From the IMG/VR virus record IMGVR_UViG_3300027754_003140, positions 1 to 26,867 of that record: a stretch of DNA of 26,867 nt; one strand, 5' to 3'. How positions within the stretch are numbered: the stretch's first letter is position 1; each line of letters begins with the position of its first letter. Both the position numbers and the translations under genes were made by a program. This document shows positions 8,143-22,953 of the stretch, in pieces. The stretch comes from a virus. Under the pieces are notes generated by a model, which was not told the origin of the DNA, searched no databases, and saw only the letters and a program-made list of their open reading frames with translations.

Positions 8143-8171
8143 AATTTAACACACTCGACGACTTATGTCAA
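8143..8171 (-). promoter_or_regulatory. Sigma-70-type promoter for the GGKGRP gene
   Basis: On the minus strand TTGACA (8171-8166), 17-bp spacer, TAAATT (8148-8143). The -35 box overlaps the TGA of the VWA gene. Downstream, GGTTAAAATTAAA resembles the start of the leader element seen before uvsE and the AAA+ gene. Confidence 0.75.
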
Positions 8172-10243
8172 TTCTTTTGTAAAAACATTTTATTAATTGT
8201 TTTAGCAATGTCAAAAATATTTTCAATGTTCACAAATGACGCATTTATTCCATACATTGTTTTAAACATATTACGGATCTTATTATCTGATTCATTTTCA
8301 AGTTTACCAGAAATATATGGTGAAGTGTATTGTTCTTTAATAAAATAACTCAAAATTTTATATCCACGATCACGAATTTTGTAAACTTGTTGACGTGTAT
8401 GTATGGCCGCTGGTTCTCCTGTATAAGAAATAGAATTATTGTTTATGTCTGAATAATTCATATATGGCTGACCATCACTGAAATTTAGAAAATAAAAATC
8501 TTCTTCAGTTGACATCGGCAATTCATTCATAATTGATTCATAACAAAGTCCCTCAGGAGTACAACCAGATGGATAAATATATTTAAATAAATTCTTTACT
8601 TTACTGATTTTATCTGTATCTGAATCATATGCAATAACTACATATGGAAGGTCCATTCCACGGGATGCTATAAATGTTGTTCTGAAACTAACACTTGCTC
8701 GAAGATTATCAATCATTGATGCGGCTTTACAAATAGCAACCACCGACGTCATTGTTGATAACCATTTTTTACCTGACATACTGGTACTTGCGTCTACGCT
8801 AATATGTATATATGACTTGTTGTATTTATCCACATCCATTGAATAGAAAATGTTCTCATTTTCAAAACTCAATTCAGACAAAATCCGTTTATCTACTCGT
8901 CCAGATGGTTTGCGCATATACTTCGTAGTATTACTTTCATTACGCAATTGTAGTTTTCTTCCCAAAACTGTACCCTTGATAATTCCTAAATTGACAGCTT
9001 TAGTCATCTTCTCATCTGTGACTGGTATATGTTTCATTGGATCTTTAAGTGTCAATGGAAATAATTCACTACTAAGTAGTTCATAATTCATTTTCTTGAC
9101 AACGATGCAATCCACACTATGAGAACCATCTGATTTAATATAAGTAGATCCTACAGTTGACAATGTAATTCCGGACTTATCAATAGAATCTAAAATTTTC
9201 TTTTCTTTGGAGGTAACTTTCTTCTTTTTAATGTTTCCTGCCAAAAAATTTTTCTGTTTTTCAAGTGCCTTTTTAATCTTGTTAAGTTTATTATCAGAAA
9301 CCTTGGGGTCATTTCCAATATTGTCTTTTACAGTATCTTCCTTAGAAGACGCAACTCGATTGGTGTCGCCACCAAGAACGTCGTCAACCGATTCATTCTG
9401 ATTGGAAGATTCATCAGAATCTTTAGATTCTTCTGATGTAGACGAATCCTCTGTGGATTTTCCTTTTGTATCTGATTGTGCAGATGACTTTTCTTTCTCA
9501 TCTTTATGTTCTGTTACATTCTTTAATATAACTTCACACACGTCATATGCAAGTAACAATCTATCGGTTGGAGTTGTTAACCTATCAATTTTTGATAAAT
9601 TAATAAGTTTCGCAATATCACGAAGACCTGTCAAAGCCTCAAGATCAGTATTGACATTATTAAAATTGATGATACGAGATTCATAACTTGCAATACTAGG
9701 ATTTCTATACAATTGACTCCTCAACATTTCGTCAATTTTGGGACTATTGAAATATGTATCATACAAAGCGGTATAATACCCACGATAACCAGGAGCATTT
9801 TTGTATACAAAATTATCAATATAACGATCCTCAATATAATTGAGGATGTTTTTTGTTAGAATATGAACGTCTTCTTTTGAAATTTGAAGTTTCTCAGAAT
9901 ATTTATACAAGATATTAGGAACCTTCTGCCAAATAGTTTTGAAAATATCAAAATCAGACAATACAACGTGACTACCTTCGTGTAGAGCTAGTCCTACAGC
10001 AGTATCAAAATCTTCCTTTTTTACAATATCGGAAGAAATATAAACAGACTTTCCATCTGTGAAATTATCTCCTCCGTCATTGAAAAATACAGGAATATTT
10101 TTGTTAGTCAAAATATGAACAAAGTTACTAATAGCTCTACGAGCCATAGACAACTTAATCAAATTTGTATTAATTGCACCTTGTTGATCAACTTCATCAA
10201 ATTCAAAATCTTCCAACCAATAGTCACTGTATGATGTATCCAT
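8168..10243 (-). CDS. Large VWA-domain protein with an HExxH motif (CobT-like partner of the AAA+ ATPase)
   Basis: 691 residues in three parts. (1) N-terminal domain with an HExxH motif, H88-EGS-H92, in LALHEGSHVVLSDFD, typical of a zinc peptidase or peptidase-derived fold. (2) A Ser/Asp/Glu/Lys-rich low-complexity linker (about 245-345). (3) A C-terminal VWA domain with a complete MIDAS metal site: D484-A-S486-T-S488, T562 in GCTPEG and D590 in FSDGQP. MoxR-type AAA+ ATPases usually work with a VWA partner as a remodelling machine, and CobT of the cobalt chelatase has the same acidic-linker-plus-VWA layout. It follows the AAA+ gene by 10 bp. Whether the HExxH site cuts protein is not shown; the substrate is unknown. 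No cobalamin genes are present, so a chelatase role is unlikely. Confidence 0.85.
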   Translation of the reverse strand: MDTSYSDYWLEDFEFDEVDQQGAINTNLIKLSMARRAISNFVHILTNKNIPVFFNDGGDNFTDGKSVYISSDIVKKEDFDTAVGLALHEGSHVVLSDFDIFKTIWQKVPNILYKYSEKLQISKEDVHILTKNILNYIEDRYIDNFVYKNAPGYRGYYTALYDTYFNSPKIDEMLRSQLYRNPSIASYESRIINFNNVNTDLEALTGLRDIAKLINLSKIDRLTTPTDRLLLAYDVCEVILKNVTEHKDEKEKSSAQSDTKGKSTEDSSTSEESKDSDESSNQNESVDDVLGGDTNRVASSKEDTVKDNIGNDPKVSDNKLNKIKKALEKQKNFLAGNIKKKKVTSKEKKILDSIDKSGITLSTVGSTYIKSDGSHSVDCIVVKKMNYELLSSELFPLTLKDPMKHIPVTDEKMTKAVNLGIIKGTVLGRKLQLRNESNTTKYMRKPSGRVDKRILSELSFENENIFYSMDVDKYNKSYIHISVDASTSMSGKKWLSTMTSVVAICKAASMIDNLRASVSFRTTFIASRGMDLPYVVIAYDSDTDKISKVKNLFKYIYPSGCTPEGLCYESIMNELPMSTEEDFYFLNFSDGQPYMNYSDINNNSISYTGEPAAIHTRQQVYKIRDRGYKILSYFIKEQYTSPYISGKLENESDNKIRNMFKTMYGINASFVNIENIFDIAKTINKMFLQKN

Positions 10244-10253
10244 ATGGTTAGGA

Positions 10254-11201
10254 TTAAAATGGAGGTTCAGAATTGTTCAACGGATCATTAATTAGATTAT
10301 TAGGCGAAGTGTTTGGAATATATTTTTGAACAACCTGTTTCATATAGGTACGTTCGCTGTCAACTCCGCCATCATTCATGAAATTTGGATAAATTGCAGT
10401 TTCTGCAATTTCAATCAAATCAAAACCATCCAGAATAAGTTCACTCATTTCAACCGTAGACCGAGTAGGAATGAAGTTGGTAAGCTTACTATCTTCATTC
10501 TTCATTTGTTCTCGTGTAAGACTTGCAATTTCGCACACAGCAGACAGAGTCTTTAATAGAGATTCGTCGGTAATGGAGAAACGAGTCTTCAAATATTCAA
10601 ATTCAGTTTTAAAATCCATTGGAGTCATTTCAATCTTGATTGGAAATCGACTCATCAGTGCTCGATCCATAACACGGGTAGCAGTATATTCATTTCCAAT
10701 ATTAGCGGTTCCAATAAAACAAACACCTTCAGCTACCTTAACCACTTCACTGTCTTGTTTTTCATCAAGCCTCAAATAACGTTGAATGTCATCCAATACT
10801 GTCATTAATACATTCCACGCGTCATGATGAGCCCGACTGATTTCGTCAAGAAGAATTACAGCGTTCGGAGTCTTGATTGCCTTGACAAAGGTAGATTCAC
10901 TGAAAAAAGTTCCTATTTCTTTGTTATAATGAGTATTACCAATCAGTGATGCCCGTGCATCTTGTGTGGCACCCAAATTAAAATAAAAGTAAGGACGTTC
11001 CAATGCGATGGCAACAGATTGCGCTGCCAACGTCTTGCCACATCCCGTAGGGCCAACAATCAAAATATTTTTTCCACGATATACCGATCTTACCAAATAC
11101 TTCCATTTGATGTTATCAATTACAAGTTCCGATGGCTTAATCGTATGACTATCTTTGATTAGAGATTTGATGTCTATGTTCTTGATGTTCGGTTTCTTCA
11201 T
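10254..11201 (-). CDS. CobS/MoxR-type AAA+ ATPase
   Basis: 315 residues from ATG 11201; an in-frame TTG at 11228 would add nine codons but lies in the conserved leader element, so it is rejected. Walker A is GPTGCGKT (50-57), Walker B AVILLDE (114-120) followed by ISRAHHDAWNVLMTVLDDIQRYLRLDE-type sequence in which the CobS/MoxR signature is easily seen, sensor 1 is GTANIGNEY (164-172), and an arginine finger candidate is R185 in ALMSRF. Phage homologues are often annotated 'CobS', but their true substrate is not established. It is the first gene of an operon with the VWA/HExxH protein and has its own promoter and upstream terminator. Confidence 0.9.
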   Translation of the reverse strand: MKKPNIKNIDIKSLIKDSHTIKPSELVIDNIKWKYLVRSVYRGKNILIVGPTGCGKTLAAQSVAIALERPYFYFNLGATQDARASLIGNTHYNKEIGTFFSESTFVKAIKTPNAVILLDEISRAHHDAWNVLMTVLDDIQRYLRLDEKQDSEVVKVAEGVCFIGTANIGNEYTATRVMDRALMSRFPIKIEMTPMDFKTEFEYLKTRFSITDESLLKTLSAVCEIASLTREQMKNEDSKLTNFIPTRSTVEMSELILDGFDLIEIAETAIYPNFMNDGGVDSERTYMKQVVQKYIPNTSPNNLINDPLNNSEPPF

Positions 11202-11209
11202 AATATTCG

Positions 11210-11238
11210 AGGAAGGAAATCCTTTCAACTTTAACCAA
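11210..11238 (-). promoter_or_regulatory. Leader element shared with uvsE (copy 2)
   Basis: Minus strand: CTTGGTTAAAG, then TTGAAAGGA, then TTTCCTTCCT, ending 8 nt before the AAA+ ATG. It matches the uvsE leader copy (6062-6090) at 24 of 29 positions, with the same AAGG-NTTT-CCTT pairing potential. Confidence 0.5.
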
Positions 11239-12021: not shown

Positions 12022-12804
12022 TCAAAAATATAAATTATCAATGTTATTTTCAACTGTTATTTTCTCTATTTCTTCAACATAAGATCCTACCTTTGGATAG
12101 GGTAATATTGGATGTTTTAGTAATTTTGCGAGCTTTTTGTTCTCTATTTTAGACGAAATGAACTTAATATATCGATGTTTACCACTTTCTTTCTTTCTCC
12201 AAAAAGTTCTTCCTATCTTTATTTTCAATTTATCAACCCCATGACTTCCCCACTTAGAATATACACTTCTACTATGTATCCACTTATAATTAGGGGGGCC
12301 TGATAAACTAACACTATAATTAGGCATTAAAGCTATATCTATATAATTGTCTCCCTGATACAAAAATCCAGTTGCCTGATAGATTATTCCAACATGTCCA
12401 ACTTCACTGTCTGCGTAACTCAATATACATTTAATCTTTGGGTAATCCTTGTTTATACAACGAAAAGATTCAGCAATACAGTAACTCTCAATATTCTTAC
12501 CATAAGAATCTCTAATCCAAAGACGGGTCAATTCAAATACACTGTCATTGGTTATTTGTTCACTAATACTAGTGCTACAATTTCTACCAACCGAATTTCC
12601 ATATACCAAAACCCCAATCAATTTAGAATTAAACCCACCAAAAAATGTGCTTTCAACGTATTCTTTATAATATACACCATATGCAACACTACAAAGAGTC
12701 CATTTGTGGGTATAGTGGTTCTTTTCTATTAACTGTCTCGCTATTTTCTTATCAATTGGTTTCAAATAAACCAATGACGTATCACAGTAAGATTGTTCTC
12801 TCAT
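12022..12804 (-). CDS. Mom-like DNA modification protein (GNAT-related)
   Basis: 260 residues. The order of motifs matches phage Mu Mom and its relatives: an N-terminal ARQLIEKNHYTHKW segment (22-35), LIGVLVYG (62-69), ELTRLWIRDSYGKNIES (91-107), a run of helix, and ILSYADSEVGHVGIIYQATGF (127-147). Mom is an acetyltransferase-fold enzyme that converts adenine in DNA to N6-carbamoylmethyladenine, protecting phage DNA from many restriction enzymes. The C-terminal ~80 residues (after NYKWIHS) are basic and may be specific to this lineage. It lies 29 bp after the PAS gene. Mu's Com regulator has no visible counterpart here. Confidence is high for the family and moderate for the chemistry. Confidence 0.75.
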   Translation of the reverse strand: MREQSYCDTSLVYLKPIDKKIARQLIEKNHYTHKWTLCSVAYGVYYKEYVESTFFGGFNSKLIGVLVYGNSVGRNCSTSISEQITNDSVFELTRLWIRDSYGKNIESYCIAESFRCINKDYPKIKCILSYADSEVGHVGIIYQATGFLYQGDNYIDIALMPNYSVSLSGPPNYKWIHSRSVYSKWGSHGVDKLKIKIGRTFWRKKESGKHRYIKFISSKIENKKLAKLLKHPILPYPKVGSYVEEIEKITVENNIDNLYF

Positions 12805-20698: not shown

Positions 20699-21520
20699 TT
20701 AACTATTAAACAAATTATCAAAAGCCTTTGTCAAGTCTTCTGTATTTGATTTTGAGGCAACCGCTGATGGTGATGTGGATGTCTTGGTGGGCGTTGCCGA
20801 CGATGCTGATTCGGGAATAACAACGTCATCATCCGACGCAATTCCTACAATGGTAGGGGTCTCGGCCGCATTTTCTGGATTCAACCAAGCTTCCATTGCT
20901 AACTTTAGTTCGTCATATGACGGCTCTTGGAACAAATCAAGAATATTCGCTTGTTTTGTTAGGATGTCTTTCTTAGACGGATCGATTGCAAGTGAAGCAT
21001 TTGGCTTAGGACGAATTGTGGTTTCTGGAAAAGTCTTTCCAGATTCCTCGGCGGTTCTAAACTCAACAACGATATCACGTCCATTTACCAGATCGGTAAT
21101 ATCACCGTAATCTTCATCAGTAATAATGCCCATCAATTCTTGATACACATTCTTACCAAATCCCCAAAACCTAACACCTTGATCTTCTTCACCTCGAACC
21201 AAAACAGGTACATAAGTACGCATCTTTGGCTCCATCTTTCTTCCAACCTGCCAGTCCTCTTTATTTCCAGTCTTTTTCATACGATTGCTAAATTCAACAA
21301 TCGGATCAGGACGATTAAAAGAATCCGGACTTAGATAGGTTTTGTTATTGATTCCATAATGGAACTTCAATTCAATGAATGGATTGTCAGGTTGAAACTT
21401 GTAAGGAACAATACGAAGAACTTGCTTACCTGGAGTTGGTTTCCAAACGCAATTGGTTTTTTGATTTGCATTTGAAAGACTATTGAGACGGTTTTTAATT
21501 AGAGACAAATTTAATGCCAT
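20699..21520 (-). CDS. gp32-like single-stranded DNA-binding protein
   Basis: 273 residues (T4 gp32 is 301). The N-terminal basic segment LSLIKNRLNSLSNANQK is like the gp32 cooperativity domain, and the core has the gp32 pattern: VWKPTPGKQVLRIVPYK (25-41), FIELKFHYGINNKTYLSPDSF, RTYVPVLVRGEEDQGVRFWGFG and YGDITDLVNGRDIVVEF. A Pro/Ser/Thr-rich linker (about 225-262) leads to a short tail TEDLTKAFDNLFNS, which would contact other replication proteins. Cysteines of the T4 gp32 zinc site are absent (the only Cys is in NCVW), so it is a zinc-less variant. It has its own promoter and a ~78-nt leader with features suggesting autoregulation. Confidence 0.82.
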   Translation of the reverse strand: MALNLSLIKNRLNSLSNANQKTNCVWKPTPGKQVLRIVPYKFQPDNPFIELKFHYGINNKTYLSPDSFNRPDPIVEFSNRMKKTGNKEDWQVGRKMEPKMRTYVPVLVRGEEDQGVRFWGFGKNVYQELMGIITDEDYGDITDLVNGRDIVVEFRTAEESGKTFPETTIRPKPNASLAIDPSKKDILTKQANILDLFQEPSYDELKLAMEAWLNPENAAETPTIVGIASDDDVVIPESASSATPTKTSTSPSAVASKSNTEDLTKAFDNLFNS

Positions 21521-21561
21521 AAGTGTTTATTGTTTAATTATTAAGTGTTTTAATTATTAAT

Positions 21562-21588
21562 TAGATGGCTCACACGAACCATTATCTA
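21562..21588 (-). promoter_or_regulatory. Leader hairpin of ssb, possible autoregulatory operator
   Basis: On the minus strand TAGAT-(AAT)-GGTTC-GTGT-GAGCC-ATCTA folds into a stem with a 3-nt bulge and a GTGT loop about 40 nt before the ATG. Downstream the leader is nearly all A/T with a repeated TTAATAATTAAA, and two ACAC sites could pair with the loop. The layout recalls the T4 gene 32 operator. Confidence 0.4.
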
Positions 21589-21605
21589 TAACTAATACAC
21601 TCATA

Positions 21606-21634
21606 AATATAAACCGAAGTGGCAAAAACATCAA
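21606..21634 (-). promoter_or_regulatory. Sigma-70-type promoter for ssb, -35 box inside the homing endonuclease 3' end
   Basis: On the minus strand TTGATG (21634-21629), 17-bp spacer, TATATT (21611-21606). The first bases of the -35 box overlap the stop codon of the endonuclease gene. Confidence 0.65.
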
Positions 21635-21653
21635 CTAATTATATCAAAAATTT
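21631..21653. repeat. Imperfect 23-bp direct repeat, copy at the 3' end of the homing gene
   Basis: Matches 22561-22583 at 20 of 23 positions. Both copies encode the C-terminal DIIS plus TGA stop, one for the endonuclease and one for the neighbour gene, so the mobile gene is bracketed by the repeat. Confidence 0.8.
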
Positions 21654-22560
21654 TAGGTTCTTTTGTTGTATGGTTTTTAAAATTAATCCAATCATTTTCC
21701 CAAATATATTTTATATTATATCCAAAACTTTTCAATTTTTTGATTCTATCAAATGTATTATTATACAACTCTTTAAAGGTTTTTTTATTACAATTATTTA
21801 TTTCAATATGATTAAATACATCAGGATTTCCGTGCCAAAAATCACCAAGAAATTCATAAATGGTTCTTGTTTCTGGTTCGTACCCATCTACATTAAATCC
21901 ATTTATAGTTATTTGTCGGTTTTCTTTTTTAATTCCCAAATAATTTAAAAATTCTATTTCAAGTTTAGAAGATTTATTGTTACATACTGGACACCCCATT
22001 CCCATTAAATGGGATGAAGGTCGTTGTTCAAAACATCCATGTTTTTTACATGAAATTTTAACTTTAATATGTGTATTTTTGTATACGACGTTTGAATAGT
22101 CATATTTATTTTCGTGGATCAAATTAGCTTCGTCAGTAAATTTGTAAACATCTTTCTTTGAAAGTCCGCTACATTTTTTACATCCATATCCTTTTAAGTG
22201 AGAACCCGCACATTGAATGAATTCTCCGTGATATTTACAAATTATTTTAATTTTAGATTGATTGTTTATATAATCAACCAAGCAGTAATCGTATTTGTCC
22301 GAATGTTTAAATTTAGCTTTTTGAAGAAACTCTTCAATAGAAAGTCTTTTTTTATCAGATACTTTCAAGTATCCGCACTTTTTACATCCAGCTCCACTTA
22401 AATGATGATGTGGTGTTTGTAAAAATTCACCGTGAATATAACAAATTATTTTTACCTTTTGACTTGATTTTATATAAAAAACATTTGAATAATCATACTT
22501 ATCGAGGTGTATCTCTTTGGCGGAGATTAAAAAATCATCTTTTGTTTTTTGATTGGACAT
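21631..22560 (-). CDS. Free-standing homing endonuclease (zinc-repeat + EDxHD nuclease)
   Basis: 309 residues. Three copies of a ~60-residue unit (about 1-63, 73-132, 138-192), each with a KYDYSxV strand, a C-x2-HG-x-F turn, an H-L-x-G-x-GC-x2-C end, so each probably binds zinc and reads DNA. The C-terminal part (about 196-309) has VDGYEPET with D225 and YEFLGDFWHGNP (235-246) with H243, like the EDxHD (PD-(D/E)XK/Vsr-related) homing nucleases such as I-Bth0305I. It starts directly after the stop of the previous gene with no gap. Its last codons and stop nearly repeat that gene's end (see repeat). It is a mobile gene between two conserved phage genes, not inside an intron as far as can be seen. 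Confidence 0.85.
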   Translation of the reverse strand: MSNQKTKDDFLISAKEIHLDKYDYSNVFYIKSSQKVKIICYIHGEFLQTPHHHLSGAGCKKCGYLKVSDKKRLSIEEFLQKAKFKHSDKYDYCLVDYINNQSKIKIICKYHGEFIQCAGSHLKGYGCKKCSGLSKKDVYKFTDEANLIHENKYDYSNVVYKNTHIKVKISCKKHGCFEQRPSSHLMGMGCPVCNNKSSKLEIEFLNYLGIKKENRQITINGFNVDGYEPETRTIYEFLGDFWHGNPDVFNHIEINNCNKKTFKELYNNTFDRIKKLKSFGYNIKYIWENDWINFKNHTTKEPKIFDIIS

Positions 22561-22583
22561 TCAACTGATTATATCCAAAAGTT
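22561..22583. repeat. Imperfect 23-bp direct repeat, copy at the 3' end of the neighbour gene
   Basis: Partner of 21631-21653. It forms the last codons (LLDIIS and stop) of the 130-residue gene; the endonuclease ATG follows with no gap. Confidence 0.8.
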
Positions 22584-22953
22584 TGATCGGAATTATTCTA
22601 ACAGATATTTCTCCGGTTAAAATGAGGCAGTTTGAATACAATTCCCAGTCCAATTGAAACTTATTATTAAACACGCCCTCATTTTCTTCTGATATTAATT
22701 TATTCATAGCATTGAGGGTATACAATGTGTTAGTTTGTTTTTTTCTGTGTAGTCCGATTGTGTTTGGAAATTTTTTAAAACTAGATCCTTCCATTACTTC
22801 CACATTATACGTTAAAAAAACGAATTCAGGAGACTGTGTGTTACCAAACAAAAAGAATTTATTTCCTGAGATAGTATAAAATTTTCTAAGAGTTGTCAGC
22901 AATGACTTATACTCGTTATTTGTACTAAAAGTGCAAAGGAGTTGTCTTTTCAT
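22561..22953 (-). CDS. Conserved-looking phage protein, unknown function
   Basis: 130 residues, apparently one alpha/beta domain: MKRQLLCTFSTNNEYKSLL, GNKFFLFGNTQSPEFVFLTYNVEV, TIGLHRKKQTNTLYTLNAMNKLI, NKFQLDWELYSNCLILTG and SVRIIPIKLLDIIS. The central sequence around HRKKQTNTLYTLNAMN is basic and might contact nucleic acid. I recognise no family. It overlaps the previous gene by 4 bp, so they are translationally coupled. Its 3' end is the site next to which the homing endonuclease gene sits. Confidence 0.65.
   Translation of the reverse strand: MKRQLLCTFSTNNEYKSLLTTLRKFYTISGNKFFLFGNTQSPEFVFLTYNVEVMEGSSFKKFPNTIGLHRKKQTNTLYTLNAMNKLISEENEGVFNNKFQLDWELYSNCLILTGEISVRIIPIKLLDIIS

Follow-up and report, generated by a model that had tools for sequence, protein, structure and literature searches.

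We describe a gene for a putative free-standing homing endonuclease that probably inserted into the last codons of a neighboring phage gene, at a point where the neighbor's TGA stop lies within the -35 box of the promoter for ssb, the gene for a gp32-like single-strand DNA-binding protein. The gene is found in IMG/VR virus record IMGVR_UViG_3300027754_003140, whose full 26,867 nucleotides (nt; 26.9 kb) are the window analyzed here, and the ssb side of the insertion appears to be native. Our analysis rests on single metagenomic records. Comparison among these shows an insertion, empty sites with a single copy of the junction, a native copy on the ssb side, a conserved promoter position, and an in-frame fusion of the endonuclease to the former end of its neighbor (Table 1).

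The initial annotation of this DNA, made from the sequence alone, proposed that the endonuclease starts directly after its neighbor's stop and that a 23-bp repeat brackets it (21606-22583). Both observations, and the coordinates, are correct. There is no gap between the neighbor's TGA and the endonuclease ATG, and the 3'-terminal 23 nt of the two genes are identical at 20 positions, so that both proteins end in DIIS. When the 25 genes of the window were aligned at their stops, the runner-up among all 300 pairs matched at 15 of 23 positions. A relic test gave the window a score of 50, which none of 100 shuffles reached. Chance, or a codon bias common to A+T-rich gene ends, might be suspected because the DNA is A+T-rich and the neighbor family often has DIIS-like ends; these two comparisons refute it almost completely. 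Furthermore, relatives of the nuclease end in KYIWENDWxxFK....P.I.. with varied short ends. Since family members stop at P-x-I-x-x and lack DIIS, FDIIS is not a family feature, and the window protein appears to have added FDIIS and its stop from the neighbor.

Relatives without the endonuclease indicate which copy is ancestral. A scan with the neighbor found at least 590 stretches encoding it, and the 80 best loci were retained. The nearest empty relatives (L002 to L010) have 108 to 109 nt between the neighbor's stop and the ssb ATG, and the window has 110 nt between the endonuclease stop and the ssb ATG. In the closest of them, L002, the junction is present once (TTTTTGATATAATTAGTTGATGTTTTTGC) and is identical to the window's ssb-side copy: L002 reads AAACTTTTTGATATAATTAGT TGA TGTTTTTGC, and the endonuclease tail reads AAAATTTTTGATATAATTAGT TGA TGTTTTTGC, with identity over 29 nt. 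The neighbor-side copy, AAACTTTTGGATATAATCAGT TGA ATG, matches L002 at 22 of 24 positions. A relic of the native 3' end, matching close empty relatives (29/29 to L002), therefore lies downstream of the endonuclease, as in the fungal elements considered below. Because the junction is single-copy in empty relatives and matches the ssb side, an insertion split it, with the ssb side retaining the ancestral sequence and its promoter. These alignments bear out the suggestion that the gene entered at the neighbor's 3' end, and they are the check proposed for it. They do not support the accompanying idea that the invader carried a replacement tail on the ssb side, rebuilding a displaced promoter. That version is very improbable: the ssb-side copy is continuous with the native ssb leader and shares all 29 nt with the empty site, so the promoter was never displaced. 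On this evidence, the DNA on the ssb side, repeat copy and promoter alike, is native and has stayed in place. The extra copy belongs to the neighbor, and this would be the one carried in, if any was. An exact pattern search for further copies of the window's own junctions recovered only L001, a record nearly identical to the window (99.96% over 7188 bp) with the same neighbor, endonuclease, and ssb layout.

The predicted ssb promoter, TTGATG-N17-TATATT, overlaps the endonuclease stop as the initial annotation stated, and the same position is kept in empty relatives. Across 51 representatives of the empty junctions, the recurring pattern is TTGAnn-N16/17-TA(T/G)A(G/T)T, with the end of the -10 box mostly 75 to 100 nt before the ssb ATG. 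In 11 of the 51, the neighbor's TGA falls within the -35 box, whose start lies exactly 4 nt ahead of the stop codon's end. A simple promoter scan is weak in such A+T-rich DNA (a mean fraction of 0.22 of shuffled sequences score as high), and it is the conserved position across relatives, not the scan score, that indicates more than chance. We take the predicted ssb promoter to be conserved. Since the -35 box of ssb incorporates the neighbor's TGA in the window's clade, any insertion has to provide both a stop and 3' end for the neighbor and TTGA for ssb, and a duplicate does so.

The ssb leader (window 21518-21605, minus strand) and those of about 23 relatives contain a hairpin whose hexaloop reads YRNGUG (CGUGUG, CGAGUG, or UAAGUG) and whose stem has two-sided changes across relatives; A/U-rich UUAA repeats follow and reach the ssb start. 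This layout resembles the autoregulatory operator of T4 gene 32 (PMC3014915). A pseudoknot between the loop and downstream sequence could not be demonstrated, as triplet matching did not discriminate, and an Rfam search of the window gave no matches.

The origin of the neighbor-side tail is best seen in L193, a different phage carrying a nuclease of the same family. Its alignment with the empty relative L139 ends 62 nt before the neighbor's stop and resumes after the endonuclease, within the native neighbor tail, at 87% identity. The neighbor's present tail is 59% identical, versus 79% for the gene upstream, and has LSNDMIKVIPIKLLEIINK in place of TGEPSIRILPIKLLEIINT. By this alignment, L193 has a foreign 3' end, which settles that its neighbor-side tail was carried in and that the relic on its ssb side is native. 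In the window, the last 63 nt of the neighbor are 89% identical to L002, versus 82% for the gene upstream. At 22/24 to L002, this tail shows no unusual divergence and thus does not separate a carried tail from a local duplication, in which the insertion itself copied about 23 bp of the neighbor's end by end-joining or template switching, with both copies drifting since and nothing carried. Local duplication is a serious if somewhat less probable account. Its copies match the empty site at 22 of 24 and 23 of 24 positions and differ mutually at three, comparable to the 12 to 16% divergence from L002, and the neighbor's tail has diverged no more than its gene; against this stand the clearly foreign tail in same-family L193 and the lack of a duplicated tail in most other inserts at this junction. 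We lean slightly toward the element having brought the tail, as happened in L193. In tests of 19 inserts, strong and extended native relics occur only in the window and L193; L138 has a weak one, and the scores of L172 and L060 exceed those of shuffles but are out of register. A further candidate for a recoded tail, L063 (compared with L062), was rejected because its tail equals that of L152, which is ordinary mosaicism.

Several lines of evidence support the identification of the inserted gene as an endonuclease. Its protein matches PHROG endonuclease and HNH endonuclease families (5e-47 and 7e-39) and, slightly under the gathering score, the DUF4379 treble-clef zinc finger. A sequence search of the PDB returned nothing significant. 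The AlphaFold2 model has a mean pLDDT of 86 and, being elongated, a low pTM of 0.41; the best PDB match of its C-terminal domain in Foldseek is Vsr (1vsr; probability 1.00, E = 0.014, 95 columns), which is modest. Residues E201, D225, E236, D240, and H243 are invariant in the nuclease family and are consistent with a predicted EDxHD/PD-(D/E)XK-type active site. Together, the PHROG matches, conserved residues, and predicted structure point to an intact nuclease domain. It is unlikely that the gene is no longer mobile, that is, decayed or domesticated and retained because part of the ssb promoter lies in its end. T4 offers a parallel, in that promoters within endonuclease genes are described as favoring gene retention (PMC2988022). 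However, the window's open reading frame (ORF) is intact with catalytic-type residues kept, and retention and mobility are compatible. A relative of the window nuclease also occurs at another replication-gene junction, between uvsX and the exonuclease gene (L083).

We find that the neighbor-ssb junction is, judging from its occupants, a hot spot for at least three nuclease families. Three further neighbor scans yielded 127 distinct junctions, 103 short and 24 long. Excluding two isolate phages with other genes and one near-duplicate leaves 21 occupied junctions, a fraction that is no population estimate because sampling was by similarity to four neighbor queries. With 103 empty and 21 distinct occupied alleles, the gene between these two conserved genes is thus optional. 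Of the 21, 15 have a nuclease, four only a small protein with an RVINIPK-like N-terminal motif, and two a small or remnant insert. Zinc-ribbon/Vsr-like nucleases occur in the window, L029, L127, and L193; NUMOD3 nucleases with a Vsr-like end, as judged by eye, in L025, L060, L138, and L271; and endonuclease VII types in L061, L063, L151, L162, L167, L172, and L175, with a second, zinc-ribbon nuclease in L151. A tree of the nuclease family was poorly resolved, and the window-family nucleases at the junction form no supported clade, which is consistent with repeated entry.

Inserts usually appear to leave native promoters in place. Promoter-like sites lie at an unchanged distance from ssb in nearly all occupied junctions, and for most inserts the right-hand flank remains alignable with empty relatives as far as the -35 region. 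The TGA stop of the L138 nuclease lies within the -35 box of TTGACG-N17-TATTCT (L138 4680-4715), and in L025 the best promoter call (TTTACA-N16-TAATAT) is at the nuclease's own end (L025 6330-6360). The end of the NUMOD3 nuclease ORF in L271 (4820-4880) likewise overlaps promoter-like sequence for ssb, as in L025 and L138.

A small protein with the N-terminal pattern (K)RVINIPKxDFDxIKxYCDxNxLDMxKWxVKNSLEK recurs at the junction, alone or with different nucleases (L029, L061, L080, L127, L151, L153, L156, L162, L167, L168, and L172). Searches with three members gave no Pfam or PHROG match, and visual inspection suggests a ribbon-helix-helix DNA-binding protein.

We propose that a free-standing gene, encoding zinc-ribbon DNA-binding repeats and a Vsr-like nuclease, would have entered the neighbor's last codons. 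The ssb side would retain the ancestral neighbor 3' end with the entire ssb promoter and leader, and the endonuclease frame would read into this relic, gaining its last five codons and stop. The neighbor would keep, or receive, a second copy of its own 3' end, such that protein, stop codon, and promoter all survive. The endonuclease may then cut the empty junction and home. Several points weigh against this proposal. The repeat is short (only about 23 nt); the Vsr match spans about 95 residues at a modest E-value; the window neighbor's tail has diverged no further than the rest of its gene, which fits a tail either carried in or duplicated; and the missing clade means that phylogeny gives no cognate homing to this site.

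Nuclease genes are commonly found near essential phage genes (PMC10448857), and parts of this arrangement have precedents. T4 segG, between genes 32 and 59, is also a free-standing endonuclease gene adjoining a phage ssb gene; gene 32 promoters lie within segG, which is listed among endonuclease genes riding on upstream transcription (PMC2988022). Embedded promoter signals in an endonuclease gene adjoining ssb were therefore already known. SegG, however, is a GIY-YIG enzyme with promoters inside its coding sequence, whereas the window has a zinc-ribbon/Vsr-like enzyme, a -35 box over the stop, and a duplicated neighbor 3' end. T4 MobE and Aeh1 mobE likewise lie between essential genes (nrdA/nrdB) with the downstream gene's promoter retained, but they are of the HNH family, and the available text describes no tail duplication (PMC2988022). 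I-Bth0305I (EDxHD) differs in being intron-encoded. It is a phage homing endonuclease with a modular DNA-binding region and a related restriction-endonuclease-type catalytic domain (PMC3943268), although our best match was Vsr and neither sequence nor fold comparison gave a direct match to its structure.

In its duplicated tail, the window is reminiscent of mobile ORFs of fungal mitochondria (Allomyces atp6; Glomus atp6, atp9, cox2, and nad3), in which the endonuclease gene supplies a substitute C-terminus and the native one remains downstream (PMC3630166). Shared features are insertion in a gene's 3' end, an extra 3' end on the gene body, and a downstream native relic matching close relatives, and L193 is a close fit. 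In the fungal cases, however, the replacement covers tens to hundreds of bases and its foreign origin is clear, compared with about 23 bp in the window; the nucleases are different, and no downstream promoter overlap is noted in the text available (PMC3630166). Our literature search, of partial coverage, found no phage endonuclease that duplicates or replaces a neighbor's 3' end at a promoter-shared stop. We tentatively suggest, as one possibility, that elements of this nuclease family bring along a recoded version of the invaded gene's 3' end and so enter a stop shared with the promoter of an essential replication gene, harming neither gene; they would then be a phage counterpart of the C-terminus-replacing fungal ORFs, at a junction that unrelated nuclease families have repeatedly targeted.

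These comparisons provide before-and-after evidence of how a free-standing endonuclease gene enters a compact phage junction while sparing the downstream promoter; for T4, this constraint has been stated (PMC2988022). A single site that is occupied by at least three nuclease families, has many empty alleles, and precedes an essential-type gene amounts to a natural experiment. How such genes avoid cost thereby becomes open to direct testing.

Table 1. Features at the neighbor-endonuclease-ssb junction of the window.
Feature	Position	Strand	Basis
Putative homing endonuclease, 309 aa; three zinc-ribbon/treble-clef repeats and C-terminal Vsr-like (EDxHD/PD-(D/E)XK type) domain; ends EPKI-FDIIS	21631..22560	-	ORF, PHROG, AlphaFold2
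Neighbor gene, 130 aa, conserved unknown; TGA stop abuts endonuclease ATG	22561..22953	-	ORF; relatives in at least 590 IMG/VR stretches
Repeat copy 1, present 3' end of neighbor, CTTTTGGATATAATCAGTTGA region	22561..22583	-	20/23 to copy 2; 22/24 to empty site L002
Repeat copy 2, endonuclease last codons and stop; probable relic of neighbor's ancestral 3' end	21631..21653	-	29 nt across stop identical to L002
Predicted ssb promoter -35 box, TTGATG; TGA shared with endonuclease stop (neighbor's stop in empty relatives)	21629..21634	-	Position kept in empty relatives
Predicted ssb promoter -10 box, TATATT	21606..21611	-	17-nt spacing kept; nearest empty relatives have TATAGT
ssb-leader hairpin, CGUGUG loop	21565..21582	-	Compensated stem changes across relatives
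ssb, gp32-like single-strand DNA-binding protein	20699..21520	-	Pfam gp32, 1.3e-14

The junction belongs to a minus-strand replication module that comprises pol A, two unknown genes, the neighbor, the endonuclease, ssb, uvsX/recA, a 5'-3' exonuclease, and DnaB. Elsewhere in the window, a Mom-family DNA modification protein (12022-12804, minus strand; Pfam Mom, 8e-44) adjoins a pair of genes that by eye are MoxR/VWA-like (8168-11228).
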